The position numbers and the translations under genes were made by a program. Positions 10,991 through 47,830 of a stretch of 64,000 bases of DNA are shown here, in pieces. The stretch's first letter is position 1; each line of letters begins with the position of its first letter. The DNA lies in the NCBI GenBank assembly GCA_013215385.1, contig JABSOY010000008.1, positions 1-64,000 on the forward strand. The letters run 5' to 3'. Below the pieces are notes generated by a model. It made no database searches. It was not told where the DNA came from and saw nothing but the letters and a program-made list of their open reading frames with translations. The stretch is from Colwellia sp. Lineage in GTDB: Bacteria; Pseudomonadota; Gammaproteobacteria; Enterobacterales; Alteromonadaceae.

Positions 10991-11009
10991 TAGTCTTTAC
11001 TTTTAGCAC

Positions 11010-16198: not shown

Positions 16199-16206
16199 AG
16201 AATAAC

Positions 16207-29715: not shown

Positions 29716-30789
29716 ATGAATATAACGATATTGGGAGCCGGTGCAGGTGGTTCGGTTACAGCCTTCGATTACGCCAATCACGGGCATTCTGTCAGGCTTT
29801 TCGATTTTCCTGAGTTTCCTAGTAATATCGAGGCGATAGCAAACCAAGGAGGTATCTATGCAGAAGGAGATATTTCTGGATTTGGCCCTGTAGCCTACGC
29901 AGGACATGACATCGATAAAGCGTTGGAAGATGCCGAACTTATTTATGTCATAGGGCCGGCATTCAGTACATTACCATTCGGTGAAGCCTGTGCGGGCAAA
30001 CTAAAGCCTGGACAAACCGTTATTATTAGCCCGGGGTCTTGTGCAGGTGCTCTAGTCTTCAAACAAGCTGCTGGACTGAGGCTTGAGGATGATTCTGTAC
30101 GGATTGCGGAAACCCACACACTACAATATGCCGTTCGTCTGCTCAAAGCGGGCCGAGTGCACGTATTTCTCAAATTGAAAGCTGGCAATCTTCTGGCGGC
30201 CCTGCCTAGCCGCCATACAGCTGACATATTACAATTGATTACGGATGTATATCCGGGAATGGAACCAGCACACAACGTGATCCAAACCAGTCTGCAAAAT
30301 GCCAACCCCGTTATTCACCCTGCCGTATCATTGACTAACGCGGCACGCATTGAAGGGGCTGGCGATTTCCTGTTTTACGAAGAAGGTGTCAGCGATTCTG
30401 TGGGACGGCTCATTGAGGCGGTCGATCGGGAGCGAATTGCCATCGGCGAGCGTCTGGGTATTACAGTACTCTCTGATCCGGAAATAGGCATACGTCAGGG
30501 CTATATGCGGGAAAATAACTACGGCTCAGCTTATCGAAAAGCGCCTGGTTTCTTGGGTATTCCTGCCCAACCTCAACTTGATCATCGCTATATTAATGAG
30601 GATGTAGGTTACGGTCTTGTGTTTATGTCTGGGTTGGCGAAGCAGATCTGCGTAGAGACTCCTAGCATTGATGCCATCATCCAGATCACGTCGGTACTCA
30701 TGAACCGTGACTATGCAGCAGAGGCGCTACGCACACCAGAATCATTAGGTATTTCAGGCCTATCCGTGGAAGAGCTCGGCAGCCTTTAA
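29716..30789 (+). CDS. Opine dehydrogenase family protein 1
   Basis: 357 residues of the NAD/NADP octopine/nopaline dehydrogenase type: a Rossmann fold with MNITILGAGAGGSVTAFDYA at the start and an all-helical second domain containing NANPVIHPAVSLTNAARIE, which holds the catalytic His. The family reductively joins an amino acid and an alpha-keto acid; the substrates cannot be read. GGAGAG supports 29716 over an upstream start at 29683. The gene is visibly richer in G+C than its neighbours, suggesting transfer. A second, divergent family member follows 418 bases later. Confidence 0.85.
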   Translation: MNITILGAGAGGSVTAFDYANHGHSVRLFDFPEFPSNIEAIANQGGIYAEGDISGFGPVAYAGHDIDKALEDAELIYVIGPAFSTLPFGEACAGKLKPGQTVIISPGSCAGALVFKQAAGLRLEDDSVRIAETHTLQYAVRLLKAGRVHVFLKLKAGNLLAALPSRHTADILQLITDVYPGMEPAHNVIQTSLQNANPVIHPAVSLTNAARIEGAGDFLFYEEGVSDSVGRLIEAVDRERIAIGERLGITVLSDPEIGIRQGYMRENNYGSAYRKAPGFLGIPAQPQLDHRYINEDVGYGLVFMSGLAKQICVETPSIDAIIQITSVLMNRDYAAEALRTPESLGISGLSVEELGSL

Positions 30790-31072
30790 TTCAACTATAA
30801 CGATATTGGTTTATCTGTATGGGATAAAGCCAGATTAAAGAGATGGTTAAGCAAAGCTAGTTATAAAACTTCAAATGTTTGGCTAATCATACTTAGTGAC
30901 ATCATATAAAAATTATAAGAACAGGTAACTGTTCAGACATCTTTGGAGAGTATAGGTTATAATGTATACACAAAATTCACACTGACTATTTTACTACCTG
31001 TAGTGATCTGTTAAGTCACTGGAATTAGGTGTTTTTAACTATATTTTTAGATGATTAACTCAAAACACCCAT

Positions 31073-31136
31073 CTACATTTCTACATTTCTACATTTCTAC
31101 ATTTCTACATTTCTACATTTCTACATTTCTATATTT
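31073..31136. repeat. Tandem 8-base repeat, eight copies
   Basis: Seven exact copies of CTACATTT (31073-31128) and one variant, CTATATTT. The array ends 70 bases before the ATG of the second opine dehydrogenase gene, in its promoter region. Confidence 0.97.
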
Positions 31137-31206
31137 ACTGTTTTATGCTTTTAAAGGATGGGTATTTAATCCTTTGAAATAAGATCAATCATTAAAAGGA
31201 ATAATA

Positions 31207-32370
31207 ATGAAAATTACCATAATTGGAGCTGGTAACGCAGGTTCTGCTTGTGCGTTTATGGCTGCCGAGGCTGGACATAAAGTAAGACTATTGAAGACAT
31301 CAAATCGTATTACACATGATGAGCACTTTGAAGCAATGGTCAGCAATAAAGGAATATATTGCGTCAATAACACCAACAATGGCCATTTTACAGACAGTGC
31401 CGATGATGCCGAAAAAACTTTCCAACCATTGGAAATGATCACGCGAGATCCCAAAGAAGCGATTGAAGGAGCAGATGTTGTGATGATTTTCATTCAAACA
31501 ACATACCATCAAGCTTTAGCTGAACGGATTGCAAAGTATTTTCAGGATGATCAATTGGTCATGTTAGTTCCAGGATACGCAGGAAGCTTGTTTTATCGTC
31601 AATTTTGCGATAATAATCCCATCTTTGCTGAGGGTGAATCAACCCCTAATGATGCAAGAGTAGTATCACCTGGTACGGTAAAAGTTTTATTTAAAAATGT
31701 CAGAAACTCTCTATCATTTTTTCCAGCTTCAAGAACTACTGAGGGCATGGCGATTGCCTCCCGTTTATTTCCTGCCTATAACATTGAAATGAACAAGGTT
31801 CGAAAACATATATTCGAATCAGCGCTACATAATCCCAATATTATTGTTCACACAGTGGGCATGTATGTTATGTACCCGATGCTTGAGTATTGTGCCAAAC
31901 ACCATCCTGATGAAGTTCCATATATGTACAGAGACGCACTTTCCACAGACATGGCATGGCTGATGATAGAGAAATTAGACGCGGAAAAAATGGCGGTATT
32001 AAGTGCACTAGGATGTGAATCAACCCCTTATCTAGATGCCTGTTTATTTAGAAACGAGGAAGATCTCACACAAAATTCAAGAGATGTATTTGAAAGTTAT
32101 AAATTATCATCACCACCCGGTCCCTATAGTTTTGATAATCGTTACATTACAGAAGATGTTCCTATGGGATTGGTTTTATTCGCATCATTAGGTGATAAAT
32201 TGAATATTGCTGTGCCTGAATGTCACCGCTTAATAGAGATGTGTGGTGGTATTTTAAAAAGAGATTTTTATAAAGAAGGAAGAACCTTAACTTCATTAGG
32301 TTTAGGTGAGTTATCCATCGAGGACCTATTATCTTTTGTCAATGACGGTATAGTACCAATCAAAAACTGA
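31207..32370 (+). CDS. Opine dehydrogenase family protein 2
   Basis: 387 residues: a Rossmann motif in MKITIIGAGNAGSACAFMAA, a helical C-terminal domain with ESALHNPNIIVHTVGMYVM carrying the catalytic-type His, and DNRYITEDVPMGLVLFASLG, which parallels DHRYINEDVGYGLVFMSGLA in gene 1. It is the same family but clearly diverged and more AT-rich. AAAGGAATAATA precedes the ATG. No nicotianamine-synthase-like or transporter gene is adjacent, so a metallophore role is not supported. Confidence 0.85.
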   Translation: MKITIIGAGNAGSACAFMAAEAGHKVRLLKTSNRITHDEHFEAMVSNKGIYCVNNTNNGHFTDSADDAEKTFQPLEMITRDPKEAIEGADVVMIFIQTTYHQALAERIAKYFQDDQLVMLVPGYAGSLFYRQFCDNNPIFAEGESTPNDARVVSPGTVKVLFKNVRNSLSFFPASRTTEGMAIASRLFPAYNIEMNKVRKHIFESALHNPNIIVHTVGMYVMYPMLEYCAKHHPDEVPYMYRDALSTDMAWLMIEKLDAEKMAVLSALGCESTPYLDACLFRNEEDLTQNSRDVFESYKLSSPPGPYSFDNRYITEDVPMGLVLFASLGDKLNIAVPECHRLIEMCGGILKRDFYKEGRTLTSLGLGELSIEDLLSFVNDGIVPIKN

Positions 32371-32727: not shown

Positions 32728-33255
32728 TCAAACATTAGTAACGACCACTTTAGTTCTAGAGTAGTTGTACGCTGTGGTAACTACTGCTTGATATTCATTA
32801 CTTGTCACAGACTCTGCTAATACCATTGATGATGGTAATAGGCATAACGCCGCGATAAAGCTCAAACTAAATAATGCGCTAAAGGTCATGCCATCAATAA
32901 TTACTGCGGCTAAACCACGATATATTTCAGCGCCTTCACCGGGTAATAACATCAGTGGCAATATACCGAAGATACTGCTCGCCATACTCATATAAATCGG
33001 ACGTTTCCTGCTATCAATTGCTAGGATAATGGCTTGATATTGGTTAAGGTTTTTCTGTAATGCACTCTGGTATTTACTCGCTAATAAAATGGCGTTATTA
33101 ATCACTTAACCTAATAGGATGATAAATCCAATCATGGTAATAATATCTAGCGCTTGATTCACAAATAAATTTAATAGCTGTAAACAAAGCATGTCTCCGG
33201 CAAAAGCTAACGGCATACTTAACATTACGGCAATGGCTAGTTTCCATGAATTTAA
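32728..33255 (-). pseudogene. C-terminal relic of an RND efflux permease
   Basis: The minus strand reads LAIAVMLSMPLAFAGDML, QALDIITMIGFIILLG, a TAA stop at 33106-33108, then VINNAILLA, IYMSMASSIFGILPLML and GEGAEIYRGLAAVIIDGM. These are the last membrane segments of an AcrB/MdtB-type permease (normally about 1030 residues) with one in-frame stop. The rest of the gene is missing. Confidence 0.75.
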
Positions 33256-33680
33256 GCTTAACCAAAGTGAAAAGAGTAACAGTGATACTCGGCTTTTTAG
33301 AGTGTGTCGATCTATTATATATCTAATTTATGTCGACCAACATTGGCAAGCGCATCATAATGTAACGATCACGTAAACCAAAACTAATATCATAATTGTT
33401 AAATACATCATTCCAACCTTGAAATTTATGATTACGGCCTAACGGTATTTAAATGGTTATTGGAAAACTTAAATCTTCTAGGCTATAAAAAGGTGGGTAT
33501 TAACTCACATAAAACTAATACAGTAAAAACAAATAGATACATGAGTTATGGGCGATATGTCGCAATCGAGTTTTAATTCTATAAAAAATAAATAGTAATA
33601 TTTATATTTTATTTATTTATAAACTCATTAGTGAATAAAGCGAGTAAATAGATAGCATATATTTTTAGTACTTACTCTTG
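33256..33680. other. Gene-free stretch between the RND relic and the biosynthetic operon
   Basis: A minus-strand run of about 40 codons around 33330-33450 (FGLRDRYIMMRLPMLVDIN) could be another gene fragment, but I cannot name it. No terminator for the operon is obvious. Confidence 0.35.
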
Positions 33681-35243
33681 TCAGCTTTGTGATAATTTTA
33701 TGTTTTTTCTTTTTGTTGGATATTTGTTATAAAGAAGTTTTTGAGCATCTCTTATTAATTTCTTACTTTTATCCAAAGATTTTTTGTTGTTAACAGCGGG
33801 CTTGGTGATGATTATCATGCCATGTGGCAGCAATTGTTCATAAAGCTTGGTGAGTAAAATAAGTATAAATTCACTTGAGAAATTTACTATGATTGAATTA
33901 TCTAGAATAATAGAATTAACGCCTAAAGTTTTTTTCCACAGTGGAGTCATAAGTTTATTTAGAGCTTCGGAACTAATTTTCTTATCGATAGTGAGCACAG
34001 GTGTCGTATGTTTATTAGGCGTACAGTCTGTGATAACGGAGCTTTGATTATCAGAAAATATTACTATGTTCTCACCATTGACACTAGCAAATAATTGTTC
34101 ATTAATTTTTTTACTTTCTTTTTTTATTCGTTTTAATATCATCGAGTTAACTTTAAATCCGGCGCCGAAAGTCATCATTAATACTTTACTATTTATGTTA
34201 GGCTGACTATTTTCTATTTCTTTGAGAACATAAAATACTGACGGTGAACTCATATTTGAACGACGCATAAAAACACGGTGGCTGTGTCCTAGGTCTCCAC
34301 AGCTAAGGGATAAACTGTCTGATATACCATGTAATATTTCAGTTCCTCCGGGATGAATCGCCCAGTAATCAATTAATTTTTGCCATTTAGGTGTTTTTTT
34401 ATTGAACAGGTATTTTAGCTTCATACTCAAAGGAAGTATTTTAGGTATTAGCTGCTTTAAATTTTTTGCAATAGGTTTTCCTGAAATAATGGCAAGCTTT
34501 CGAGATAACTTTATCCAAGGGCCTGCTTCACTTTCCTGAAATCGTATCGCATTAAAGCTGTTGTTATCGGCGCTGATGGTTCTTACTGAATGCTTTATTT
34601 GGTAAAGAGCTGGCTCGCTATGTGTAGAGAGAATAACAGCTGCACAACCTTCGCCAAATAGCGAATTAGGTGCGATATTATCTTCAGATAAATTAAAAAG
34701 ATTAGTTACCGCTTCAAGACTAATGACTAGAGCTCGACTGGCTTTATTCTCTGATTTTAAAAATCTCATTCCAGCATCTAAAGCTGCTAGGCCGCTAGAA
34801 CAAGACATTCCCCCTAGATTTAAAGTGACTAAGTGGTCACCAAAATTAAAAGAGTTGGCAACTATGCTGGCAGCACTGGGCATGGTTAAACCGACACTAC
34901 TTGTGACAATAACAAAATCAATGTCAGCGGCTGTGAGCTTACTCTGCTCAAATACGCCATTGATGGCATCGCACATTAGTTCTCTGATAACTTTTTCATA
35001 GCTGATTAAACGTTGTTCCCGCGTATTAAAGTTTAAAACTTCATCTAATTCAGGAATAAGTTTTCTTTGACGTTCGGGCGTAGCTTGCAGAATTTTATCA
35101 TAAAACCATAACATTTTTTTTGAGTTGTTTTTTGACTCGCTTTTGGCAAGTGCATCAACTACATGTTGAAATACTTGCTTATTATCAAGAGATTTCCCCT
35201 TTTCTGAACAATAAAAATTAACAATGGAAACTTTTTTCTTCAT
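33681..35243 (-). CDS. Chalcone-synthase/KAS III-like enzyme with C-terminal extension
   Basis: 520 residues. Residues 65-372 form a thiolase fold with Cys148 in GGMSCSSGLAALD, His297 in WAIHPGGTEIL and Asn330 in RRSNMSSPSVFYVL, the Cys-His-Asn triad shared by type III polyketide synthases and KAS III. GFGAG-like FGAGFKVNSMIL closes the domain. The last 145 residues are extra; LLTKLYEQLLPHGMIIITKP resembles the end of a methyltransferase fold, but that is weak. It would condense an acyl thioester with extender units. It is the last gene of the operon. Confidence 0.85.
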   Translation of the reverse strand: MKKKVSIVNFYCSEKGKSLDNKQVFQHVVDALAKSESKNNSKKMLWFYDKILQATPERQRKLIPELDEVLNFNTREQRLISYEKVIRELMCDAINGVFEQSKLTAADIDFVIVTSSVGLTMPSAASIVANSFNFGDHLVTLNLGGMSCSSGLAALDAGMRFLKSENKASRALVISLEAVTNLFNLSEDNIAPNSLFGEGCAAVILSTHSEPALYQIKHSVRTISADNNSFNAIRFQESEAGPWIKLSRKLAIISGKPIAKNLKQLIPKILPLSMKLKYLFNKKTPKWQKLIDYWAIHPGGTEILHGISDSLSLSCGDLGHSHRVFMRRSNMSSPSVFYVLKEIENSQPNINSKVLMMTFGAGFKVNSMILKRIKKESKKINEQLFASVNGENIVIFSDNQSSVITDCTPNKHTTPVLTIDKKISSEALNKLMTPLWKKTLGVNSIILDNSIIVNFSSEFILILLTKLYEQLLPHGMIIITKPAVNNKKSLDKSKKLIRDAQKLLYNKYPTKRKNIKLSQS

Positions 35244-35290
35244 TATTTATTGTCTCTTTATAATTGATTACGGTTCTAGTTGATTTTTAA

Positions 35291-36571
35291 TTAAAAATGA
35301 TATGAAAATGTAACTTGAATAAAGTTTTGCCGAGCATAAAGTGCAGCTTGCTTTACTAATGATTGATTTTTTAATCCTGCATTGATAAATGTTTCTGGAG
35401 ATATTGGCTTGCCAGCATCAATAATAAAGCCGTCAAATTGAATTTTTATATTATTACTATGACGCCAGCTAGATTCCATGCCGATAATTTTTTCTTTACT
35501 TTTTGAATCATAAGTCACGCTAAGTAATGCTTCAGTGCTTGCTTGATTATTGAATGCTATTCGAGATGCAAGGTATAAGTCGTCCTGATAAATACTCGAT
35601 TGTGAGCCTTCTCTCGAATCATACAAATATTCGAGTATCCAGCTAATATCTATGTTTGTTGTGAATATGCTGTTAGCGTTATATTCCAGACCTATATCAG
35701 CGGCATAAAAAGTTTTTCTCCCGCCTGACTGCGTAATTAACTCTGCTTTATAGCCCCAGTTACCTTTAAGGTAAAGGGCTTCTATACCTGTTTGATCTAT
35801 GACTGGATAAAAAGGAAATAGCGTAGGGTTATCATTGCTTCTAAGTTTCCCTTCAGTTAAAAAGTTGTTTAAGTCGAATGAGTCTGTAGCTAAGGTAAGT
35901 ACGGGCTCTCTAGCTGTACCAATGAACTTTGATAGTGCAATTTGCCAGTTTCCTAACAGGTGCTGCCAACGAAATGCAAAATCAATTCGCTTATTTTGAG
36001 CACTAGATTCATATTTAGCATTATCAGTGTTTACTAACAGAGGTAATCTTGGACGTCCCATCGCACTTGGGAACTTCTTTTCTCTCAAGCCAACTAGGGC
36101 ATAAATGTCAAATATACCATAGTCACTAACCCTGGATAAATTAATCATTGGTTGGCCTAGTTTTTCATCTCCATCTATCTGGTCGATATCATCTTTTTGA
36201 TTAATAATGTCGACTAAGTTTATGGCTTCTGTGACTCCCCAGTTTTCAATTCTAATCCCGGTTCTGTATTCCCAATGGTTATCAATATGGAGCCATGAGA
36301 GTTCTTTAATATCAAAATGTGTGCGTTCGTTATCATTCTTATCCAGTCGGATGAAAGGAGTGAATGCGAATAGATTTTCACCGTTATTTGATTGCTCATA
36401 AAAAGACACTTTTAAGAATAACGATGGCGATTCTTTTGAATCATAACCTTCTGTACGTTGATTGAAATGCCTATTTTCTAAGCCGACCTCACCCAATATC
36501 TCAACAGCTGCAACCGATTTAATATTAAGTGTAATGAGTCCTATTAAGGTCATTAATTTCACATATTTCAT
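35291..36571 (-). CDS. Outer-membrane beta-barrel protein of the biosynthetic operon
   Basis: 426 residues with a signal peptide (MKYVKLMTLIGLITLNIKSV). The body alternates polar and aromatic strands and ends QNFIQVTFSYHF, a BAM-type C-terminus. ELSWLHIDNHWEYRTGIRIE and the WGVTEAIN string suggest a DUF1302 or alginate-export-like barrel, tentatively. It overlaps the LolA-like gene by four bases (ATGA). With the MMPL pump and the LolA-like carrier it would complete a route to the cell surface. Confidence 0.8.
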   Translation of the reverse strand: MKYVKLMTLIGLITLNIKSVAAVEILGEVGLENRHFNQRTEGYDSKESPSLFLKVSFYEQSNNGENLFAFTPFIRLDKNDNERTHFDIKELSWLHIDNHWEYRTGIRIENWGVTEAINLVDIINQKDDIDQIDGDEKLGQPMINLSRVSDYGIFDIYALVGLREKKFPSAMGRPRLPLLVNTDNAKYESSAQNKRIDFAFRWQHLLGNWQIALSKFIGTAREPVLTLATDSFDLNNFLTEGKLRSNDNPTLFPFYPVIDQTGIEALYLKGNWGYKAELITQSGGRKTFYAADIGLEYNANSIFTTNIDISWILEYLYDSREGSQSSIYQDDLYLASRIAFNNQASTEALLSVTYDSKSKEKIIGMESSWRHSNNIKIQFDGFIIDAGKPISPETFINAGLKNQSLVKQAALYARQNFIQVTFSYHF

Positions 36572-37359
36572 CGTGATCTTTTTAAACTATTAGTGGTGAA
36601 ATTCATATCGGATAAACCTAAATTAAACTTATATTTATTCCAAGATAAAATAGTATACCGTCCTGTTATATTATTACTCATCGTCATAGTACTGGCGCGC
36701 CAGTATTTATCGTTATACTTTTTATAATCAGAAATAATAAGGGTTTTGCTATGCGTTGCTTTTCGATCAAAATAATGGATTTTTTGAATGAGATATTCTT
36801 CATTATCAACCCATAGTATTTCCTTGGTATACCCTGAGTTTTTGCTTTTTGGAAAGCGAATCAAAACAAAACAATTTAACTTTCCACAGGCTTCATTTTT
36901 GAGGTACTTATAGGTGAATTTTTCCACTTTTTGTGGGGTCATATCTTCATAACTGAATTCACTACCAATAAAAGACCCGGCTTTGTTTGAAGACGAAATA
37001 GCTTTTACTCGTTTAATTTTTGGTAAATATAGCCACTGTTTATCTGGTTGTTCAGTGTAGCTCCAGGTAAGTAGAGCAGTTCCTCGTATATCATTAGGAA
37101 AGGTGAAAGAAAACAAGGTCTTATCACTTTTTAAACTATCATGTTCTAGTGTTTGTATTTTTAACTTTCTTGAAACGCGATCCCCTTGTTTAGTGATGAG
37201 GGTCATCTCCATATCAGCATAACTGTCGCCAAACCCTGAATAACGCTGGTATGATTCAGTAGCAATAATGAAGCCTTGATCTACTTGTGTAAATCCATAG
37301 GCAAGATTAGTAACTAAGGCTATACCTATTAACATCACTAATATTTTCAAAGTGTTCAT
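36568..37359 (-). CDS. LolA-like outer-membrane lipoprotein-sorting protein
   Basis: 263 residues with a signal peptide. DMEMTLITKQGDRVSRKLKI, TALLTWSYTEQPDKQWLYLP and SFIGSEFSYEDMTPQKVEKF are the pattern of the LolA-like proteins that accompany MMPL/RND lipid exporters. The fold is a half-barrel that shields an acyl chain in the periplasm. It lies between the hypothetical gene upstream (2-base gap) and the barrel gene downstream (4-base overlap). Confidence 0.88.
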   Translation of the reverse strand: MNTLKILVMLIGIALVTNLAYGFTQVDQGFIIATESYQRYSGFGDSYADMEMTLITKQGDRVSRKLKIQTLEHDSLKSDKTLFSFTFPNDIRGTALLTWSYTEQPDKQWLYLPKIKRVKAISSSNKAGSFIGSEFSYEDMTPQKVEKFTYKYLKNEACGKLNCFVLIRFPKSKNSGYTKEILWVDNEEYLIQKIHYFDRKATHSKTLIISDYKKYNDKYWRASTMTMSNNITGRYTILSWNKYKFNLGLSDMNFTTNSLKRSR

Positions 37360-37361
37360 CT

Positions 37362-38105
37362 TTAACTGCCTTCTTGAATGCTATTATGAGACTTTTCTTT
37401 TATTAGTTTTTTGTACAGTTTTTTACACATAGTTTTAATGTAATAAATAGGGAGGTCAATAATAGGTACCCCACAAACGAATACTAATACACCATGTGAA
37501 ACGTCACCTTCAATGTAGTCCATAAAAACTTTGCCTTTGTTGTCCATCAACGCTAAATCTGTTTGTTCACCCTTTATTTGAAATTCGAGTGCTTGCATAC
37601 GATTTCTAAGTATGCCTTTTTCATTAACATCTGCTGCACCAATTACCTTGGCAACGGTTGAATATAAGGCTTGATATTTAAATTTTCTGTCTGGATTTTG
37701 GACATTTGGAAACACTGAGCCACCTAACGACAGCATGTTGTAATAACTTCTAGGGTTATTGGATATGGTAACAAAGGAATTTAGTCTAAATAGCCCCTTA
37801 AAAGAGATAACGTATTTATAAAATAAATAACTACCAAGCTTTGTTTGTACTTTTTTAAGCTGACCAGATTTACCACTTAAGCTAAATTGCAGAACGGAAT
37901 TACCAGCGATTACTTTTTGTTGATAAAATAAAAAAGCTTCAGGTTTGTGATCGTTAGTATAAAGAATTAATACACTTTCAATACTTTGAATATAGTAATC
38001 TAAGTTCTTAAGGGTATTTTCAGAATCAAAAGCATTATTAAAGATAGTGATAAGATCACTTTTTTCATTCATCGTTAATTTGTTGCATATATAATCTTTA
38101 ATCAT
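37362..38105 (-). CDS. Hypothetical, possibly GNAT-like acyltransferase
   Basis: 247 residues with no signal peptide. The central part (FLFYQQKVIAGNSVLQFSLS, TISNNPRSYYNMLSLGGSVF) has the feel of a GNAT fold, with a mid-protein strand and an NPRSYY helix, but the acetyl-CoA loop is not clear. A hydrophobic stretch, HGVLVFVCGVPIIDLPIYYI, followed by a Lys-rich tail suggests membrane association at the C-terminus. AGGAG precedes the ATG. Function not known; acyl transfer would suit the operon. Confidence 0.6.
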   Translation of the reverse strand: MIKDYICNKLTMNEKSDLITIFNNAFDSENTLKNLDYYIQSIESVLILYTNDHKPEAFLFYQQKVIAGNSVLQFSLSGKSGQLKKVQTKLGSYLFYKYVISFKGLFRLNSFVTISNNPRSYYNMLSLGGSVFPNVQNPDRKFKYQALYSTVAKVIGAADVNEKGILRNRMQALEFQIKGEQTDLALMDNKGKVFMDYIEGDVSHGVLVFVCGVPIIDLPIYYIKTMCKKLYKKLIKEKSHNSIQEGS

Positions 38106-38141
38106 TTTATTACTCCTGTGTGTTCACTGTTTTGTCTCTCC

Positions 38142-38582
38142 TTAACTGGATTCATGATTAAGTACTCGGGTCATCAGTTTATGACGTTGGTCAAATGTGT
38201 AATTGGTCATGGGTTTGGCGAACAAAGGATCGAATATCCCTAAGAAACCTGCACTGAAATTTAATTTATCTCGGTAAAGTGTTCCTTGTTTAGTTTCTTC
38301 AAAATGATGCTCATGTATGAAATATTTATAAGGCCCAAAACGCATGACGTCGACAAATACTTTATTGTGCTCAAATTGAGTTATTTCGGTGTGATAGAAA
38401 ATAGGGACTTTGGCGATATAAAACTTAAAAGTCAGCTCTATGCCAGATTGAGTCCATTGTTCTGGACCAGTCAACCAAGTGACTCTATAAGGAAAGTGTT
38501 GTAAAAATCCACTTTTGGATGCACAAAAAGCAAAGACCTCATCAATAGGTTTCTGGAGTAATACCGATTTTTCCAATTTCAT
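38142..38582 (-). CDS. SRPBCC (START-like) family protein
   Basis: 146 residues: SVLLQKPIDEVFAFCASKSG at the start, a central FYHTEITQFEHNKVFVDVM and a C-terminal helix RHKLMTRVL give the helix-grip ligand-binding fold. Members bind lipids or polyketides, and some act as cyclases or aromatases. It begins four bases after the desaturase stop, so it probably binds or cyclises the operon's product. Confidence 0.82.
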   Translation of the reverse strand: MKLEKSVLLQKPIDEVFAFCASKSGFLQHFPYRVTWLTGPEQWTQSGIELTFKFYIAKVPIFYHTEITQFEHNKVFVDVMRFGPYKYFIHEHHFEETKQGTLYRDKLNFSAGFLGIFDPLFAKPMTNYTFDQRHKLMTRVLNHESS

Positions 38583-38586
38583 TAAC

Positions 38587-39594
38587 TTACTTCTCTTTTA
38601 AATTGATGGTTTTAAATTGTGATTTAATATATAAATCAACAGGATCTTTAGTTCGTAGGTAAGCGGAAAAAGCAAGAAAAGAGACGTCGTTATAATCTTT
38701 GTTTTTAGGAAATTCCTGCATCAATTGAGTGACCTTAGGTAAATTATGCCAAGGTACAGTAGGGAAGTAGTGATGCTCTGTATGAAAGTTAAAATTATAA
38801 CAAAGTAACGTAGAGCCGAATGTGAAAAAAGTTGATGATCGCGTCACACTATCTTGCTCATGCAAAGGGATCGGCTTATTTCTTGTTTTGGAAGTAAAAG
38901 GGAATAAGCCTGAATGATGAGTAAAATTGATAGTTTCAAACCAAATAAAAAAACAGATAATGATAGGTAAGACATAAATAAAATATGCTTTACCTCCAAA
39001 TGTTGCTAGTAATATTGCATGTGGCAAAAGGCAAATCAATATACTGAATAGCCCTTTTTTTGCTTCACTGTGGTCATGCTTAATCAAGGCTTTAAATGGA
39101 TATGCCCAGAAGACGGTGAAAATAAGTTGTATTGAAGGAATTGGAATACATAACCACCAAACTAGTCTGAATAAATTACGTTTAACTATTGAAGCTTGTC
39201 TTAACTTTATTAAACCGACTTGGGTAGGATCTTTGTCTATGACACCCACCCATTTATGATGTTGAATATGTAAATCTCGCCAAGGAAAATAAGGTATAAA
39301 ACAAAACATGCTACAAAATAGGCCTGCCCAAGTATTTCGTGATTTAGTTTTAAATAAGGTTCTATGACCACAGTCATGTAATAAGGTAAAAAAGCGGAAC
39401 ATACCAATACCAGATATGATTATTAGTGACCAATAGCTGAACGAAAATACTTCGGTGTTGATCAGGAAATAAAATAAGATGATAAACATTAAAGTTTCAA
39501 AAGTGATTATCAACAGGCTAACCTTTGGAGAGGTTGATAGTAAACCCTCACTTTTTACTTTGTTGCGTAAATTTCTAAAGTCAATTTTATCCAT
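38587..39594 (-). CDS. Membrane fatty-acid desaturase
   Basis: 335 residues with about four membrane helices and the three His boxes of the di-iron family: HDCGHRTLF, HIQHHKWVG and HTEHHYFP. Such enzymes insert a double bond or hydroxyl into an acyl chain. Its start codon overlaps the exporter stop (ATGGATAA). It presumably modifies the acyl chain carried by the operon's ACP or the finished lipid. Confidence 0.92.
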   Translation of the reverse strand: MDKIDFRNLRNKVKSEGLLSTSPKVSLLIITFETLMFIILFYFLINTEVFSFSYWSLIIISGIGMFRFFTLLHDCGHRTLFKTKSRNTWAGLFCSMFCFIPYFPWRDLHIQHHKWVGVIDKDPTQVGLIKLRQASIVKRNLFRLVWWLCIPIPSIQLIFTVFWAYPFKALIKHDHSEAKKGLFSILICLLPHAILLATFGGKAYFIYVLPIIICFFIWFETINFTHHSGLFPFTSKTRNKPIPLHEQDSVTRSSTFFTFGSTLLCYNFNFHTEHHYFPTVPWHNLPKVTQLMQEFPKNKDYNDVSFLAFSAYLRTKDPVDLYIKSQFKTINLKEK

Positions 39595-41935
39595 GGTTAT
39601 AACCTTCCTGTAGCGTATTGACTGTCCGTTCAGAGTCTTTTTTATCGATATAAAGTAAAATGGAGGGTAAAAATAGTAGGTCGATTATTAATGCAGTAAA
39701 GATAGTTAAGGCAAGTAAATTTCCCATATGAGCGGTAGGCTGAAAAGGAGAAAATCCCATGATCACAAAGCCGGCCACTAAAACTACGGTAGTAATCACC
39801 ATAGCTATACCAACTGTGCTAAAAGCATATTCAATTGCTGCTTCAGGTGATAGGTTTAAAGATTCTCGGGCAAATTTGTATTTGGTTAGAAAGTGAACGG
39901 TATCATCGACAATAATCCCGATGGCCATACTGACTACTGCGGAAGTCGCTAAACCAATTTCTGAAATCGTTAATCCCCAAACACCAAAAGCACATATCGC
40001 AGGTAAGATATTTGGTATTAAGCTAATTACACCGTATTTAATTGAACGAGTGATGCAGCCAAGCATGATTGAAATCACAAAAAATGCCAACAGAGTTCCC
40101 CACAACATGCTATTGGTATTTGAACGAGCAATATTAGCGAAAGCTATATCTAAACCACTGGCACTGCTGACTTGAATAGAATCAGGAGTGTTGTCCTGTA
40201 ACCAGTTTTGAGCTTTTTGGGCTAAAATAAGTACCTCTTCGGATGAAGTTTTATAAACTGTTATAGAGACTCTAGTTGCCGATTTATTGAAGCTCACTTG
40301 GTTATTTAATCCAAGCCCATAAGGCAAAGACATTTCATAAAAAAGTAAATATTGTGAGGCGAGATCTGTATTTTCAGGTAGTTTATATGCCAGCTCTTGG
40401 TCAAAATGCATATTTTTATTTAGGCGTTTAAATATATCCGTAATGGCGGAACTATGGGCTACATTTGATTGTTGTTGATACCAGACTTTGAATGACTCAA
40501 CAAAGATTAAAAACTCTGGGTGGGAAATCCCGCCATCATATTTAGACGTCAGCATATAATCTATGCGATGAAGTCCTGTAATCTCTTCATTTATTTTTTC
40601 TGTCGCTATACGCAGATCAAATGATAAATCAAAATAATTATTCCAGTTATCATTAAGTTTATTGTTAAACATTTGATAAGCGAATAATGAAGTGATACAT
40701 AAACACGCTGGTAGATAATATCGGTAGCTACGACTAACATGACGGCCGAGCTTTTCCATTAATTTATTCAACAATGGCTTTTTAATGTTTTTTGCTACGG
40801 GAAGTACAGCAAGCAGAGCAGGCAATAAAAATACTGATAGGAGAAATGCAGCCAAAGTGCCAGTTGCAACCATGTTACCTAGATCACGATATGGTGGCGA
40901 GTCATTAAAATTAAGGCATAAAAATCCCACGATAGTAGTAAAACTGGTCACTGTAACAGGCATAAAGTTTATTTTAAGGCTATTACTAATTGCTGCTTCT
41001 TTATTCTGGCCGCTTTGTAGGTTTTTATAGTATGTGCTTAAAATATGGATGCAATCAGCTATTGCTATGATTAATATGGCGCTAGGAACAAATCCAATTA
41101 CCGGAGCGAGTATGCTGTCAAGCCATCCATAGATGCCTAGTACTAAAATATTAACTAAAGAAACTATAAACAGTGTAATTGCTACTGCCCATATATTTCT
41201 CAATAGCAAAAAAAGTAACAATGTAATGATGGCATAACATAATGGTACTAAAGTTAAAATATCTTGTACTGCAGCCTCTCCCATTACTTGATTCATCATT
41301 ATTGAGCCCGCTAAATAAAAATGAATATTAGGGTAACGCTCTTGATATTGAGCTATTACTTGACGAACAAAACTCACTGCTTGTGGCGTTTGCGTCATAC
41401 GTTCAGGGAGATCGTCACTCAAGTGAAGGGTTACTAATAAACCAGTCGATAGACCATCTTCAGATAATAGAGATTTCTTTAGTAAAGGCTCGGCTAATGC
41501 GATCTTTTTGAGTTGAGCAAAATCATAGCTTGAATCAAGTTTTTCGGGGATAAGATTTTCAACAGAAATATCGTCTTCTATGGCCTTTGAAAATTGGAAA
41601 TTACTTAAAGAGTCAACTCTGACTGAGTGTGGTGTTTCCCATAATTTTTGGGTAAGTTGGAGTAATGCAGTAACGGTATTCTTTTCAAATACGGTACCTG
41701 ATGTTGGTTTAAGGGCTATATAGAGAGTTTCGTTCTTAGTAAACTTGTCTTCAATTCGTTCTATATTGAGAACATCTTGACTATTGTCATCCAAATAAAC
41801 GCGAAAATCTGTACTGATTTTCAAACGAGTAACTCCAATAGCGGCAATGAAACATATCAACAAGCTGACAGCAATTACACGAATTCTATTACGGATCAGC
41901 CAAGCTGAATACTTCTTTATCATGAAGGTCAACAT
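39587..41935 (-). CDS. MMPL/RND-type lipid exporter
   Basis: 782 residues: one N-terminal helix, a periplasmic loop of about 190 residues, five helices, a second periplasmic loop, and six helices. ILIIAIADCIHILSTYYKNL and GIIVDDTVHFLTKYKFARES are the paired helix-4 motifs with Asp residues for proton flow, typical of MMPL/HpnN-like exporters of hydrophobic molecules. The ATG at 41935 or 41923 may be used. It is the likely inner-membrane pump for the product. Confidence 0.9.
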   Translation of the reverse strand: MLTFMIKKYSAWLIRNRIRVIAVSLLICFIAAIGVTRLKISTDFRVYLDDNSQDVLNIERIEDKFTKNETLYIALKPTSGTVFEKNTVTALLQLTQKLWETPHSVRVDSLSNFQFSKAIEDDISVENLIPEKLDSSYDFAQLKKIALAEPLLKKSLLSEDGLSTGLLVTLHLSDDLPERMTQTPQAVSFVRQVIAQYQERYPNIHFYLAGSIMMNQVMGEAAVQDILTLVPLCYAIITLLLFLLLRNIWAVAITLFIVSLVNILVLGIYGWLDSILAPVIGFVPSAILIIAIADCIHILSTYYKNLQSGQNKEAAISNSLKINFMPVTVTSFTTIVGFLCLNFNDSPPYRDLGNMVATGTLAAFLLSVFLLPALLAVLPVAKNIKKPLLNKLMEKLGRHVSRSYRYYLPACLCITSLFAYQMFNNKLNDNWNNYFDLSFDLRIATEKINEEITGLHRIDYMLTSKYDGGISHPEFLIFVESFKVWYQQQSNVAHSSAITDIFKRLNKNMHFDQELAYKLPENTDLASQYLLFYEMSLPYGLGLNNQVSFNKSATRVSITVYKTSSEEVLILAQKAQNWLQDNTPDSIQVSSASGLDIAFANIARSNTNSMLWGTLLAFFVISIMLGCITRSIKYGVISLIPNILPAICAFGVWGLTISEIGLATSAVVSMAIGIIVDDTVHFLTKYKFARESLNLSPEAAIEYAFSTVGIAMVITTVVLVAGFVIMGFSPFQPTAHMGNLLALTIFTALIIDLLFLPSILLYIDKKDSERTVNTLQEGYNHG

Positions 41936-41961
41936 TCCCTGTTGCAGGTTTATATAAATTG

Positions 41962-41990
41962 GCTAGCCGCTTATCTGATTGTCGGCTAGC
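41962..41990. other. Hairpin in the KAS II-exporter gap
   Basis: GCTAGCCG and CGGCTAGC form a perfect 8-base stem with a 13-base loop in the 136-base gap inside the operon. Only the plus side is followed by T-rich sequence. It may stabilise or process the mRNA. Confidence 0.5.
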
Positions 41991-42071
41991 TATTATTTTT
42001 TATAGTGTTTTTTAGTTTAGAGTTTAACTATCTTTGGGACTAGGTTATTTCTCAGTCAATGCTTAATAATT

Positions 42072-43298
42072 TTATTGTTGATCACCAGTTGCAGTGGCTT
42101 TTTTAAAAATTAAACTTACATTTAAACCACCGAACGCAAAAGAATTACTCATCACATAATTGATAGCCATACTTCGAGATATATTTGCTACATAATCAAG
42201 GTCGCACTGTGGATCACCGGGTACAAAATTTATGGTCGCAGGAGCTGTTTGGTGTTCAAGTGCAGCTATACAAGCTGCAGCTTCCACAGCTCCAGCGCCG
42301 CCTAATATATGACCATGCATAGATTTAGTGGATGAAATAGCAACCTTTTTTGCATGTTTCCCAAAGACATTATGAATAGCTTGGGTTTCAGTAGAATCAT
42401 TTTGTACTGTTCCAGAGCCATGAGCGTTAATGTAATTAATATTTTCAGGTGAAATTTGTGCGCTAGCCAAAGCTTTATTCATAGCGCTTGTCATGCCATT
42501 TACACAAGGGGCGACTACATGATAAGCGTCAGAGCTCATTCCAAATCCGACTAACTCAGCGAGAACTTTTGCCCCTCGGTTTAGTGCGTGTTCATATTCT
42601 TCCAAAATAATTGTGCCACTACCTTCTCCTAATATCACTCCTCCACGTCCAGAAGAAAACGGTTGACATTTATCTTTAGAAAGTACTCGTAATGCTTCCC
42701 ATACTTTAACACCTCCACAAGTTATAGGAGCCTCAGAGCCTCCACACAGAGCTATTTTTGCCTGTCCCGTTTGTAATAACATCGCGCCAATAGCAATTGC
42801 ATGGCTCGAGGATGCACAAGCACTGTTTGTACCAAAACTTGGTCCAGTGATACCAAATTCTAAGCTAATTTGACTAGCTGCAGAACTAGGCAATAATTTA
42901 GGGAGAGTAAAAGGAGCAAACCGTTGAATATTATCTTTAAATAAGCGTTTATAGCCTTCCTCTAAGGTATTGAGTCCTCCAATACCGCTACCAAAAGTTA
43001 CCGCTATGTCATCACTATATTCACTATTAATTAATCCAGCTTGTTTAAAGGCTTCGCGAGAACTGATCACTGCGAATTCAGCAAACCTGTCAAGATAAGG
43101 TAGTTGTTTTTTAGTATCAAAATGTTCTTCAGGGGTATAATTCTTTACTTCAGCAGCATTCTGGCGATTAACCCTAGAGCGATCAAATAGAGTGATGGGT
43201 GATACCCCATCAACCCCTTCTAGTAAGTTATTACTAAATTCTGCATAGTTGTGTCCAATTGCACTGATACAGCCTATACCCGTTATTGCAATTCTCAT
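42072..43298 (-). CDS. Beta-ketoacyl-ACP synthase II (FabF-like)
   Basis: 408 residues from the ATG at 43298. The catalytic Cys is in TNSACASSSHAIAIG, and the two His are in INAHGSGTVQND and TKSMHGHILGGAGAVE, so the enzyme looks active in decarboxylative condensation of malonyl-ACP. SNSFAFGGLNVSLIF closes the fold. The start overlaps the ACP stop (ATGA), so the two are translationally coupled. It is a dedicated extra copy, away from the housekeeping fab locus. Confidence 0.94.
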   Translation of the reverse strand: MRIAITGIGCISAIGHNYAEFSNNLLEGVDGVSPITLFDRSRVNRQNAAEVKNYTPEEHFDTKKQLPYLDRFAEFAVISSREAFKQAGLINSEYSDDIAVTFGSGIGGLNTLEEGYKRLFKDNIQRFAPFTLPKLLPSSAASQISLEFGITGPSFGTNSACASSSHAIAIGAMLLQTGQAKIALCGGSEAPITCGGVKVWEALRVLSKDKCQPFSSGRGGVILGEGSGTIILEEYEHALNRGAKVLAELVGFGMSSDAYHVVAPCVNGMTSAMNKALASAQISPENINYINAHGSGTVQNDSTETQAIHNVFGKHAKKVAISSTKSMHGHILGGAGAVEAAACIAALEHQTAPATINFVPGDPQCDLDYVANISRSMAINYVMSNSFAFGGLNVSLIFKKATATGDQQ

Positions 43299-43582
43299 GA
43301 AGGGCAACCAACACTTTCGGCTGACTTCTCTATCTCTTCTTCAATTCTTAATGCAAGTTCAGAGATAGTACCTAAATTCATGCGCTCATTAATTTCATCT
43401 GAATCATCGATAGAGATATCATATTCATCCTCTATTTCGAAAAGTAAGTTAACAGCGTCAAGTGAGTCAAGTTGGGCTTCTGACATTGACATACTCGGAT
43501 TAAGTGAGGATGGATCGGTGTCATTAATTTCCGAGATTAGTAATATTAGTTTTTTTTCAATCTTAGATGATTTAGTAGTCAT
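43295..43582 (-). CDS. Acyl carrier protein of the biosynthetic operon
   Basis: 95 residues starting MTTKSSKIEKKLILLISEIN, with the phosphopantetheine Ser in EAQLDSLDAVNLLFEIEDEY. A longer frame from 43630 exists, but AAGGA precedes the ATG at 43582 and the fold begins there. It is longer and more acidic than housekeeping AcpP. It is the first gene of the operon and carries the growing chain for the adjacent KAS II. Confidence 0.92.
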   Translation of the reverse strand: MTTKSSKIEKKLILLISEINDTDPSSLNPSMSMSEAQLDSLDAVNLLFEIEDEYDISIDDSDEINERMNLGTISELALRIEEEIEKSAESVGCPS

Positions 43583-44628
43583 TTTTGTCCTTGAATAACC
43601 TAAAAGGGTTAATAATTCCATTATATTCACGGAGCATATGTTGAATAAATGTTAATGGCAAGCAAATGAAATGAAATCAATGTGTATTTGTTTAAATTGA
43701 CTTGTAGGGGGAGGCGATAATGCCGTTAACATTTATTTATCTTTTAATTGATGTGTTATGGGGTTTTAAATAACATTTTTGCAGCTTTTTGCTAACCAAT
43801 TAAATAGGATTACCTAACCTAGAACATCATAAAATTAGCTTTATGTATATTAAATTGAGACTGACTTATGTTATTTGAAGCAATATGCTAGCAGCTCAGT
43901 CATTAGGTTAAGTCTAAAATCATTTATACGTGATGTTTCGAGTGTTTAATAACCGAAATACTCTTTAGTTGGTTGTTAGTTATTTCAAGGATAGATAGCG
44001 TTTGACCACGTTATTTTATCTCATGATGGCATTGCTTCTCTTTCAGTCTTTTTCAATTAAGAAGTGAGTCTGAAATAAGTAAATCTTTGGGCGCGTTTAT
44101 TCTATTCAAATATCTGGTTAAGTAATTTATTACGTTCTTTTTGAAGTCATTCAAGGTAAATTTTATAGCCATTTTCATCACTTGCTCGTTTAGTCTTTTA
44201 AAATGAATACCAAGTTTCAAATAAGTTTAGCACGGGGTGATTTTTTAATTTTTCATAGGTCATGATCATACGGATATTTTTTCGTATTGCTCCTTTGCTA
44301 TTTTTTCATTGCTGGAAAAAAACAAGGGCGATATAATTTATCTATGGATAAAAGTACTGTAAGTTAACCCGGATTGAGGTTAACTTAGTATGTTGTAATA
44401 AATGAATTATGTAATGTTTTTTAGAATATAGGACTTGCACTATATCAGCATTTTCAACCTGTAAAAGTGTCACTTTTCTAAGCTGTTTGATAGAGGATAT
44501 TCAAAAATTACAGAAACAGAAAAAACTTGGCTATATTCAACTTCCAAGCGATCAAGTTGGGATTTTGGCTTATCACTTATTGAAAGTAAGTATCAAAGCC
44601 AGTTCAATCTAAAAAACAATTCAAAGAC
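43583..44628. other. Long gene-free region upstream of the biosynthetic operon
   Basis: About one kilobase without a supportable gene. It should contain the operon promoter. A plus-strand run around 44490-44580 (DIQKLQKQKKLGYIQLPSDQ) looks like a gene fragment of unknown family. Confidence 0.45.
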
Positions 44629-44794
44629 AGCCCAAAGAACAAATACTCAGAATCGAACAAGTAACTGAAATGATTGGGCTCTCACGTAGCACTATATGGA
44701 AACGACGGGGACGCTCCCAACAATAGTACCATTAGGAAAAAGAAGTGTTGACTGGCGAAACATTCAAATAGAAGAATGGATAGCAAATAGATAA
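44629..44794 (+). pseudogene. AlpA-family phage regulator, frameshifted
   Basis: QILRIEQVTEMIGLSRSTIW then KRR, followed after a frameshift at the GGACGCTCCC run by PTIVPLGKRSVDWRNIQIEE and WIANR stop. This is an AlpA-type winged-helix protein, normally about 65-70 residues. AlpA genes go with P4-like integrative elements. It lies about 115 bases before the decayed groEL 3'-end copy. Confidence 0.7.
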
Positions 44795-44834
44795 AATATT
44801 AAAGTTTATTTAAATATTTTTTTGAAATCTTGAT

Positions 44835-45004
44835 GTTTAGGGAGGGAAGTGGGGGGCTAGGTTTTTAATATTAAATAAATCACCTATAAATCAATGGTAT
44901 AGCTACTACATGGGCGGTATGATGTAGAGATAGAGTTAAACTCTACTTCTACACAGTTCCAATCATTTAAACGAAAGCCCTCATAGCAATATTAGGACTT
45001 TTTT
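44835..45004 (+). repeat. Decayed copy of the groEL 3' end and terminator (copy A)
   Basis: ATGGGCGGTATGATGTA at 44910-44926 is identical to the groEL end. GTTCCAATCATTTAAACG and the weakened hairpin GCCCTCATAGCAATATTAGG with its T-run follow. A G-rich tract (44840-44857) precedes it, as in copy B. Confidence 0.75.
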
Positions 45005-45295
45005 ATTGTTAATTAAATTAATAAATATTTTCAGACAGCCTTATATCTTTATTTATCCTATCTTTTGTTTCGATCTGGCATAAGTCTTCGTGGTTTAGGG
45101 AAGATGGATTGGCAAATAATTTCGACTTTCTATGATACCTCAACTATCAATATTAAAGACTGAATTTAAATAGCTAATTTCTCATAAAAAAGACATTAAA
45201 AATTTGTATATGTTTGGTAGGCTTTTAGTTACTTTAAACTATCTACGGAGCGAAGCGGAATATAAAAACAAGAGCTAATAACGCTTAAATAAAAT

Positions 45296-46363
45296 TTAAT
45301 TCTTTTTGTTACCTCCTAATTCAACTCCGTATTTTTTAGCTTTAGCTTTCCATAAACGCTTGGCCAACTTTTGCATATCAATATCTTTGTCACCTTCATC
45401 GATTATTTCATGACCGATTAAGGTTTCCAAAATATCTTCCAGTGTTAATATTCCCCTAACAGTGCCATATTCATTTACTATCAGTGAAATATGCGCTTTG
45501 CTAAGTAACATTTCCTTCATCGCATGTGACAAGGACATATTATCTAGCAAGGTTGGCATCTCCCGGATATAGTTACCTAAACTTATGTCACTATTACCGC
45601 GAGCCTGAGCTAACAATAGGTCGGCTCGAATAACAAAACCAACAATGTCATCTAGGTCTTTGTCATAAATGGGTATTCGAGTAAAACGATTTTTTTGATG
45701 CTTATGAAAAAACTCACCCACTTTAAGCGTTTGTGAGTTAAAGAACATCACCGTTCTTGGGGTCATGGCTTGTTTGATTTTAATTTCTTTTAGTAAAAAG
45801 AGGTTTTTTAATATAGTGGCTTCTTGGCGGTCTATATAACCTTCATCTGCACTCATCTGTGCCATGATGGAAAACTCATTGCGCTTAAATCCCGCGGCTT
45901 CCTTTTTTAACATATTACGAGTAATAATTTCTAAAATTTTGATAAATGGATTTAATATATAGATTAAAAACTTTAGACAGTAGGCGGTAACAGGAGCCAA
46001 CTCCTTGTAATATGAAGCGCCTAGTGTTTTAGGGATAACCTCTGAAAAAACTAGGATCAGGAAAGTTAATACTGCTGAGATGACTCCTAATGAAAGGTCT
46101 CCTAAGACTAACGTTGCTTGAGCTCCAACCCCTGCCGCACCGACAGTATGCGCTATAGTATTCAAGGTCAAAATAGCGGCCAAAGGTTTATTTATATCTT
46201 CCTTTAACTCATGCAGAATTTTCCCTGCTTTTTGTCCTTTTTTTTCTAGTAACGCAATATGTATCCAAGAAACACTCAATAATACCGCTTCGGCAATAGA
46301 ACACAAAAACGAGAAGAATAAGGCAATAAATAAATATAATCCTAAAAGAAACATAGGTGCCAT
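45296..46363 (-). CDS. CNNM/CorC-type membrane protein with CBS pair
   Basis: 355 residues: an N-terminal CNNM (DUF21) membrane domain with the SEVIPKTLGASYYKELAPVT motif, then two CBS domains (MTPRTVMFFNSQTL; VNEYGTVRGILTLEDILETLIGHEIIDEGD). The usual C-terminal CorC-HlyC transporter-associated domain is missing. The family is linked to magnesium or other cation efflux and was once called hemolysin-like. A second start at MFLLG, three codons in, is possible. Flanking genes are decayed. Confidence 0.9.
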   Translation of the reverse strand: MAPMFLLGLYLFIALFFSFLCSIAEAVLLSVSWIHIALLEKKGQKAGKILHELKEDINKPLAAILTLNTIAHTVGAAGVGAQATLVLGDLSLGVISAVLTFLILVFSEVIPKTLGASYYKELAPVTAYCLKFLIYILNPFIKILEIITRNMLKKEAAGFKRNEFSIMAQMSADEGYIDRQEATILKNLFLLKEIKIKQAMTPRTVMFFNSQTLKVGEFFHKHQKNRFTRIPIYDKDLDDIVGFVIRADLLLAQARGNSDISLGNYIREMPTLLDNMSLSHAMKEMLLSKAHISLIVNEYGTVRGILTLEDILETLIGHEIIDEGDKDIDMQKLAKRLWKAKAKKYGVELGGNKKN

Positions 46364-46556: not shown

Positions 46557-47830
46557 TCATGATGAGTTATTGATACTCTGCCCCTTACCAGAGAAATAAC
46601 GAAGCCATAACTTAATAAATATAGGAACTGAAATATTTAACGAAAAAGCCGTAAACATTAGGGTATAAAAGACTTCGGTGGTAAAGATATGATTGTGAAT
46701 ATATCCTATGTCCATGACGATAAAAGTAAGTTCAGCACGCCCCAACATGCCAAATCCTATCATTATTGATTCTTTATCATTAAAATTAGCCGTAAAGCGT
46801 GCGGCTAAACTTGCTGACAGTATTTATGCAAACATGATGGTCAAGGTTAGTACTAGTGTAGTATTAACAATACTGAGTAATATTGCTCCATCTAGCACTA
46901 TTTTAGCCCCCCAAGTTGACAAAGAATACCGGCCATATCCAAGCAAATGCTACATTATCAATGATCTTACGAGTTTTTTTATAGGTATTTATAGTCCCCC
47001 TAGAATCTTCGCCGTAGAAATACTCCTTGCTCATAATCAAACCAGCCATATAAGCGCCAACAGCTGGGTGTAGGGAAAAGTAATGAGCCAAAATTGAAAA
47101 TAATATAGCAATGGTTAGGATAGCCAAAGTTGCCACTTTTCCATCACTAAATGCCAACAAATTATGCAAGCCAAACTGGGCAGATAAAGAACGTCCCCAG
47201 GTTTTCGAATTGCTTACAGGTTTCGGAAATATCCAAACAGCAAAAACAATAACCCCTGCAAAGAAGAGCAATGCTTTGCAGGTAGTTAACATTATGCCAG
47301 CTAACGACAACTCACTCTGACCACTGACTAAGGGGAGTAATATTGCGACAATAGATAAGTGAAGCTGCATTATCGAGAACCGCAGCTGTCATGATGTCCG
47401 TTGCCGCTTTGGTTAAGTGAAGATTTTCATGCTTAAGAACCGCCATGGGTAAAGAAACTGTGATCGCAGCCATTGCAAGACCAACCAATATGGCAATGTT
47501 GGTGTTATGCCAAAAATAAATAGCACAAAAATATGAAGCAATAAAAGGCCCTAAAGCGGCAAATAATGCTATCCCCCAGGTACGTTTAATACTGCGCATA
47601 AATACAGTCGCATTTTCTTCGAACCCTAAAGCAAACATGATCAAAATAATGCCAAGCTCAGAGAAACCAGCGATAAAAGGTGTCGCTTTGACCGGAAGTA
47701 GACCAAAGGTAACTAAGATACTTCCCATCACTAGATAGAAGAGCAAGGGGGTTAAGTGAGTTTTATTAGCCAAATAATAAGACACAAAAACACTACACTA
47801 AATCAATGCTAAATAGTTAAAATCTTGCAT
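46557..47830 (-). pseudogene. Cation:proton antiporter (CPA2/KefB-like), multiply disrupted
   Basis: From the ATG at 47830 the frame reads MQDFNYLALI, a TAG stop, then SYYLANKTHLTPLLFYLVMG and ELGIILIMFALGFEEN. A frameshift near 47370 moves it to SIVAILLPLVSGQSE and HPAVGAYMAGLIMSKE, and another near 46900 leads to the last helices (GFGMLGRAELTFIVMDIGYI). The layout matches CPA2 sodium or potassium/proton antiporters of about 400 residues. At least one stop and two frameshifts make it non-functional. Confidence 0.85.

Follow-up and report, generated by a model that had tools for sequence, protein, structure and literature searches.

A nine-gene run of Colwellia sp. that joins candidate lipid-biosynthesis genes, including a 3-ketoacyl-CoA synthase-type condensing enzyme, to an MMPL-LolA-barrel transport cassette

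The DNA analyzed here (the window) is a 64,000 nt stretch of contig JABSOY010000008.1 from Colwellia sp. It carries a run of nine intact open reading frames (ORFs) on the minus strand, with no internal stops, that reads from position 43582 down to 33681. The first gene encodes an acyl carrier protein (ACP) of 95 aa (positions 43295–43582; PF00550, E 8.2e-8) and the second a NodE-like ketoacyl-ACP synthase (KAS) of type II and 408 aa (42072–43298; PF00109/PF02801). These are followed by an MMPL or HAE3-type RND transporter of 782 aa (39587–41935; PF03176, E 4.5e-37), a membrane fatty-acid desaturase of 335 aa (38587–39594; PF00487, E 5.6e-37), a predicted SRPBCC/START-fold protein of 146 aa that adjoins the desaturase (38142–38582), and a 247-aa protein with no family match (37362–38105). 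The last three genes encode a LolA_like periplasmic carrier of 263 aa (36568–37359; PF17131, E 2.2e-57; DUF1329, E 1.5e-7), a putative outer-membrane barrel of 426 aa (35291–36571), and a condensing enzyme (33681–35243; PF08392, E 3.2e-39). In the condensing enzyme, approximately residues 1–384 are of 3-ketoacyl-CoA synthase (KCS, FAE1/CUT1) type by domain score and a 136-aa C-terminal extension follows.

Pfam cut-offs are passed by the ACP, KAS, MMPL, desaturase and LolA_like proteins, and the condensing enzyme scores best as FAE1_CUT1_RppA. The ACP has a DSL motif with Ser40, the KAS has Cys161, His293 and His330, the desaturase has three His boxes (H73xxxH, H109xxHH and H271xxHH), and the condensing enzyme has Cys148, His297 and Asn330. 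A first-pass annotation of the window had given the ACP, KAS, MMPL, desaturase and LolA_like proteins the same labels and had described all active-site residues seen as intact, and both statements hold. The catalytic roles assigned to the motifs of the four enzymes and carriers are presumed ones. With families and motifs intact on one strand, the coherent set for lipid biosynthesis and transport that had been proposed is borne out at the level of sequence. The GC content is 31–40% across the nine genes and 36.8% in the window, and is uninformative on origin.

The junctions between successive genes, from the ACP to the condensing enzyme, are -4, +136, -8, +4, +36, +2, -4 and +47 nt, where minus denotes an overlap. 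The genes had been described as same-strand with tight overlaps. The shared strand stands, and the tightness applies to five of the eight junctions (three overlaps and two gaps of 4 nt or less), so that the run is compact apart from the 136-nt gap (41936–42071). This gap lies between the KAS and MMPL genes and sets the ACP-KAS pair apart from the remaining seven genes. It contains an 8-bp hairpin with a z value of -2.56, and equal folding stability was found in 3 of 200 shuffled sequences. The hairpin is not called by a terminator scan. The gap and hairpin possibly represent an attenuator or a unit boundary. A boundary is what would be expected if the region were recombined and held two or more adjacent units with no joint function, the ACP-KAS pair on one side and the transport and tailoring genes on the other. 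In agreement with this, ACP-KAS pairs, the transport cassette and desaturase-SRPBCC pairs each occur apart elsewhere (see below). Against it, the desaturase, SRPBCC and 247-aa genes are located between the MMPL and LolA-like genes, with one junction overlapping by 8 nt and the next three leaving 4, 36 and 2 nt, and a set of separate units is considered quite improbable.

The condensing enzyme was labeled chalcone-synthase-like in the first-pass annotation, and this label is not sustained. The protein scores 135.4 bits against FAE1_CUT1_RppA (PF08392), over positions 7–284 of a profile of 290, versus 27.7 bits against Chal_sti_synt_N (PF00195), just above the cut-off of 27. Eight bacterial type III polyketide synthases (PKS), which were retrieved as controls with the window enzyme as query, show 48–75 bits for PF08392 and 53–100 bits for PF00195; in one control, L003, PF08392 is slightly above PF00195 (74.5 vs 70.5 bits). 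No NCBIfam model is passed, the best being DpgA with 69 bits vs a cut-off of 425. Among the best 60 of 111 PDB matches, the top four are sequences named 3-ketoacyl-CoA synthase, with 113–118 bits (E 4.8e-33), and the next has 54.5 bits. We take these four to be plant enzymes. In a tree of 12 sequences the window enzyme groups with two KCS fragments (support 92/98), with long branches flagged. A tree of 14 sequences shows the same grouping with 99/99, but two of its entries are wrong (FabH_L006 and FabH_L007). Each of the two is simply the longest ORF at its locus and has no Cys in the aligned column. They are therefore unlikely to be FabH and are left out of the tree of 12.

An alternative is an ordinary type III PKS that is primed by lipids, with an exported alkylpyrone or alkylresorcinol as the product of the operon. 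Cys148, His297 and Asn330 align with the columns of KCS and also with those of 8/8 bacterial type III PKS, and the cut-off of PF02797 is passed. The approximately unbiased test does not reject a tree that places the enzyme with the bacterial PKS (p-AU 0.101), and the SRPBCC protein has fold matches to polyketide aromatase/cyclases, TcmN being one, which also fits a polyketide product. The domain scores, the PDB matches and the grouping with KCS in both trees point the other way, and the type III PKS explanation is considered rather unlikely. The enzyme is therefore termed KCS-type by domain score; with 92/98 support for the KCS grouping and the alternative tree not rejected, descent from KCS is likely but unproven. 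Residues 385–520, the 136-aa extension, gave no family match. A methyltransferase remnant was considered for this segment and found no support, as the match to YecO is at chance level (E 1.2). A ctenophore chalcone/FAE1-type gene is tabulated in one paper as of bacterial origin (PMC6005172).

In NCBIfam the KAS is above the cut-off of NF005589, a broad model for the KAS II subfamily (438 vs 387), and below that of the FabF equivalog (452 vs 494). It is 45.7–46.1% identical to two rhizobial NodE proteins vs 39.0–40.1% to FabF of E. coli and to the FabF of its own genome, the latter named by similarity. An ACP gene is directly upstream of NodE in both rhizobial records. The record annotation does not name NodF and NodE; both names are our assumption, based on the position of the two genes next to nod genes. 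No BLAST match was found between the window ACP and the two NodF proteins. Matches to the KAS at E ≤ 1e-95 are present in 33 of 369 genomes of the class, own genome included, and the best two others have 48–49% identity. These two belong to ACP-KAS pairs from two genera, in the regions 6647–13019 of locus L155 and 6629–13149 of locus L156. On one side of these pairs is a hybrid histidine kinase with an Hpt domain, and on the other side, one gene on, is an HD-domain response regulator, an arrangement that presumably resembles RpfC/RpfG fatty-acid signaling. There are no nod genes among the scanned neighbors of the two pairs, and therefore the resemblance of the KAS to NodE is attributed to a wider accessory group and not to nodulation. 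Phage records matching the KAS number 29, with five listed at 40–41% identity; these were not used.

The 146-aa protein has no Pfam match, and its earlier SRPBCC label is upheld by structure prediction. An AlphaFold2 model based on a 4-sequence alignment has a pLDDT (predicted local distance difference test score) of 76.5 and matches 256 PDB chains at a Foldseek E value ≤ 0.001. The 50 matches listed include START chains, polyketide aromatase/cyclases such as TcmN, and CoxG. The model thus supports an SRPBCC/START-like fold.

Cyanobacterial homologues are 41–44% identical to the desaturase and 39–42% identical to the SRPBCC protein. In 72,556 plasmid records there is one SRPBCC match (39%), and it is beside the best desaturase match (44%) on a plasmid of Anabaena sp. 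WA102. The desaturase matches 145 plasmid records; among the 40 listed, all others are at 28% or less. A scan of genome contigs with a two-desaturase alignment gave 99 pattern matches with four relatives, which come from two metagenome-assembled genomes (MAGs) of Calothrix, a Nostoc and a MAG of Bdellovibrionaceae. The SRPBCC gene adjoins the desaturase gene in 4/4 cyanobacterial loci (Anabaena plasmid, two Calothrix and Nostoc). Neighborhoods were examined in two of these, by annotation in the Anabaena plasmid (L110, pair at 15493–17002), where the neighbors are PKS, nonribosomal peptide synthetase (NRPS) and DevBCA-type genes, and by Pfam in one Calothrix locus (L112, pair at 9508–11002), where ACP, CMAS-type methyltransferase, KS-AT-ACP, C-A-ACP-TE, HlyD, FtsX and ABC genes are present. 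Together the desaturase and SRPBCC genes appear to form a unit for acyl or polyketide chemistry. The literature found on this pairing was one paper, which deals with heterocyst regulation.

The 247-aa protein had been called GNAT-like, a label that could not be confirmed. It has no Pfam or NCBIfam match, its PDB matches are at chance level (E 0.35 and 0.71), and there is one weak PHROG match of unknown function (E 0.0035). A single-sequence structure model has a pLDDT of 31.1 and was discarded. In 196 genomes of the family, a search found the protein itself and a single weak match that contains stops; no match was found on plasmids.

The MMPL protein is nearest to HAE3 in NCBIfam (TIGR00921, E 1.9e-44), with 152 bits vs a cut-off of 352. 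The barrel protein has no Pfam match, but its signal-like N-terminus, its C-terminal Phe and the location of its homologues beside MMPL and LolA-like genes agree with the outer-membrane barrel proposed earlier. A LolA-like match at E ≤ 1e-15 is present in 149 of 369 genomes of the class, own genome included. Forty of these loci were fetched, mostly the best-scoring and not a random sample, with several cut by contig ends; 29 have MMPL, LolA-like and barrel genes, six have MMPL and LolA-like genes, and five have LolA-like and barrel genes. Barrel homologues in these loci comprise 30 ORFs, 29 of which end in Phe or Tyr. Among the 29 complete loci is a second set from the same Colwellia genome (L068, 6838–11383), with 38.5–45% identity to the window set and adjoined by TetR, PhyH-like and copper-monooxygenase-like genes. 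By sequence, the MMPL, LolA-like and barrel genes are a widespread cassette, which in the window runs as MMPL, three genes, LolA-like and barrel on one strand.

Two published gene sets appear to be of the same kind, a reading made from their descriptions and not from sequence comparison. In Thalassolituus, levels of TOL_3187, a protein with MMPL and LolA-like domains, rise on C28 alkane, as do those of TOL_3188, a porin-like protein encoded downstream, and the authors propose that TOL_3187 helps place the TOL_3188 porin, which passes alkanes (PMC6304351). AmeABCD of Castellaniella consists of an HAE3 pump, a LolA-superfamily protein, a barrel and one more protein; deletion of ameABCD lowers monoterpene tolerance and raises dye influx, which is read as efflux (PMC6394551). 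The complete path from inner-membrane pump through carrier to barrel that the first-pass annotation described is therefore present in all three components, but as a known kind of cassette and not as a new path. Since published work on comparable sets deals with alkanes and monoterpenes, export is a proposed direction here.

These data bear on a further explanation, in which the transport genes serve the uptake or clearance of an alkane, terpene or lipid as hydrophobic substrate, and the enzymes act on a lipid that the cell has acquired instead of making an exported product. The alkane response of TOL_3187/3188 and the effects of the ameABCD deletion favor it, as does the finding that none of the other six operon genes has a match at E ≤ 1e-3 in any of the 40 cassette loci, so that no locus has the window's biosynthetic genes nearby. 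On the other side, the run has an ACP and a KAS of its own, which speaks for synthesis, AmeABCD is read as efflux and not uptake, and the published sets are likened to the window set by description. Uptake or clearance is seen as having a small chance of being the true role, similar to that given above to separate units.

Relatives of the set were sought by single-gene searches in genomes that are samples of each rank, and the pattern scans used can miss relatives. No second copy of the nine-gene set was found in the sampled genomes or contigs, and the open-access full-text literature yielded no description of a cluster with these genes, in accord with the earlier statement that none was known. 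The condensing enzyme has no second copy in its own genome. It has matches at E ≤ 0.001 in 66 of 196 family genomes (own included), the others listed having 31% identity or less, and in 398 phylum genomes there are three matches at E ≤ 1e-18, its own and two that are chalcone-type by domain scores. Genome contigs gave 30 pattern matches to it and no relatives, and 28 plasmid records matched, none covering 80% of the query and the 20 listed at 26% or less. The desaturase was found in its own genome only among six genus genomes, and in 369 class genomes there was one other match, at 26%. Viral contigs that were scanned had no relatives.

A CNNM homologue is present at 78–81% identity in three same-genus genomes. 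In the approximately 20–40 kb surrounding it, none of the nine operon genes was found at E ≤ 1e-10. Fourteen other flank genes are likewise unmatched in these stretches at that threshold, apart from one distant window gene (30%, in L171), and an empty site for the operon is not definable from the three regions. Acquisition of the operon from outside may be suggested from its patchiness only. Several other features of the window flank the run. An inverted repeat with a 10–11 bp stem (44360–44387) is located in the 1.7 kb that precede the operon, and just downstream of the operon is a stop-broken remnant (32728–33640) that resembles part of an RND efflux pump when its translations are read by eye. 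Two related dehydrogenase-like genes, 28% identical, follow groEL at 29683–32370. These are presumably opine-dehydrogenase-like; the second has no match in 4/5 other genus genomes and a 27% match in the fifth. Two overlapping ORFs in different frames at 46903–47785 resemble pieces of one cation antiporter and possibly represent a broken gene.

The explanation preferred here, with confidence that is evenly balanced, is that the nine genes are a mosaic operon for the synthesis of an acyl lipid, extended and desaturated, and for its delivery to the outer membrane. The ACP and NodE-like KAS would build or lengthen a dedicated acyl chain. The membrane desaturase would add unsaturation, with the SRPBCC protein as an acyl-binding or cyclase-like partner, and the KCS-type enzyme would condense the acyl thioester with malonyl-CoA to give a beta-keto product of greater length. 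A possible role of the 247-aa protein is to link the chain to an acceptor, and the outer membrane or cell surface would be reached by way of the MMPL pump, LolA-like carrier and barrel. The order of steps, the substrates, the direction of export and the product are put forward as a scheme.

Several points weigh against a lipid-export operon. The association of the genes rests on one genome, as the set was not found in any other organism. Among the nine genes none was recognized as a reductase, dehydratase, thioesterase or acyl-ACP ligase, so the pathway must borrow these. The 136-nt gap may split the run into two units, one of ACP and KAS and one from MMPL onwards. The placement of the condensing enzyme among bacterial PKS is not rejected, and TOL_3187/3188, a similar set by description, is tied to alkane passage and not to lipid export (PMC6304351). 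The order of the desaturase-SRPBCC pair is reversed, with the SRPBCC gene before the desaturase in cyanobacteria and after it in the window, and no SRPBCC match was found in the Bdellovibrionaceae desaturase locus (L115).

If the proposed scheme is correct, a plant-type elongase condensing enzyme is placed in a bacterial lipid pathway. A biosynthetic set would also be tied to the MMPL-LolA-barrel cassette, which is widespread although little is known of its cargo and direction, and the direction of transport could be tested directly with a substrate made by the operon. A more specific form of the scheme is a bacterial counterpart of plant wax elongation, in which the KCS-type enzyme elongates an ACP- or CoA-bound desaturated chain that takes the outer-membrane route as a new class of surface lipid. 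This is a tentative suggestion, and on balance it is doubtful.

A comparison with known systems shows both shared and distinct features. FAE1/CUT1 3-ketoacyl-CoA synthases are plant enzymes that carry an N-terminal hydrophobic pair. They are the best PDB matches of the window enzyme and agree with it in the Cys, His and Asn columns, but the window enzyme is bacterial, is without the hydrophobic pair in a hydropathy scan, and has a C-terminal extension of no known family. Rhizobial NodF-NodE likewise has an ACP gene directly followed by a KAS gene (with a 4-nt overlap in the window), and the window KAS is nearer to NodE than to FabF; in contrast, no nodulation genes are present among the ten window proteins scanned (33681–46363). 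The cyanobacterial PKS-NRPS clusters of the Anabaena sp. WA102 plasmid, Calothrix and Nostoc share the adjacent desaturase and SRPBCC genes, and the two loci examined have exporter genes; unlike the nine-gene run, they have type I PKS, NRPS and an ABC-type exporter.

The published MMPL/HAE3-LolA-like-barrel cassettes have the same three kinds of component by description. The window differs in having the desaturase, SRPBCC and 247-aa genes between MMPL and LolA, the ACP-KAS pair before, and the condensing enzyme after the barrel. TOL_3187 has the MMPL and LolA-like domains fused in one protein (PMC6304351) and AmeABCD has a fourth protein (PMC6394551). Aryl polyene clusters likewise contain an ACP, a KAS, an RND pump and a LolA-like protein, with proposed carriage of the product to the outer membrane, where the aryl polyene is attached (PMC8253772). 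Relative to that description, the nine window genes are without a recognized acyl-ACP synthetase, ketoreductase, dehydratase, thioesterase or LolB-like gene, and have a desaturase, an SRPBCC protein, a KCS-type enzyme and a barrel instead. The operon resembles the aryl polyene clusters in design but is not a member of them.

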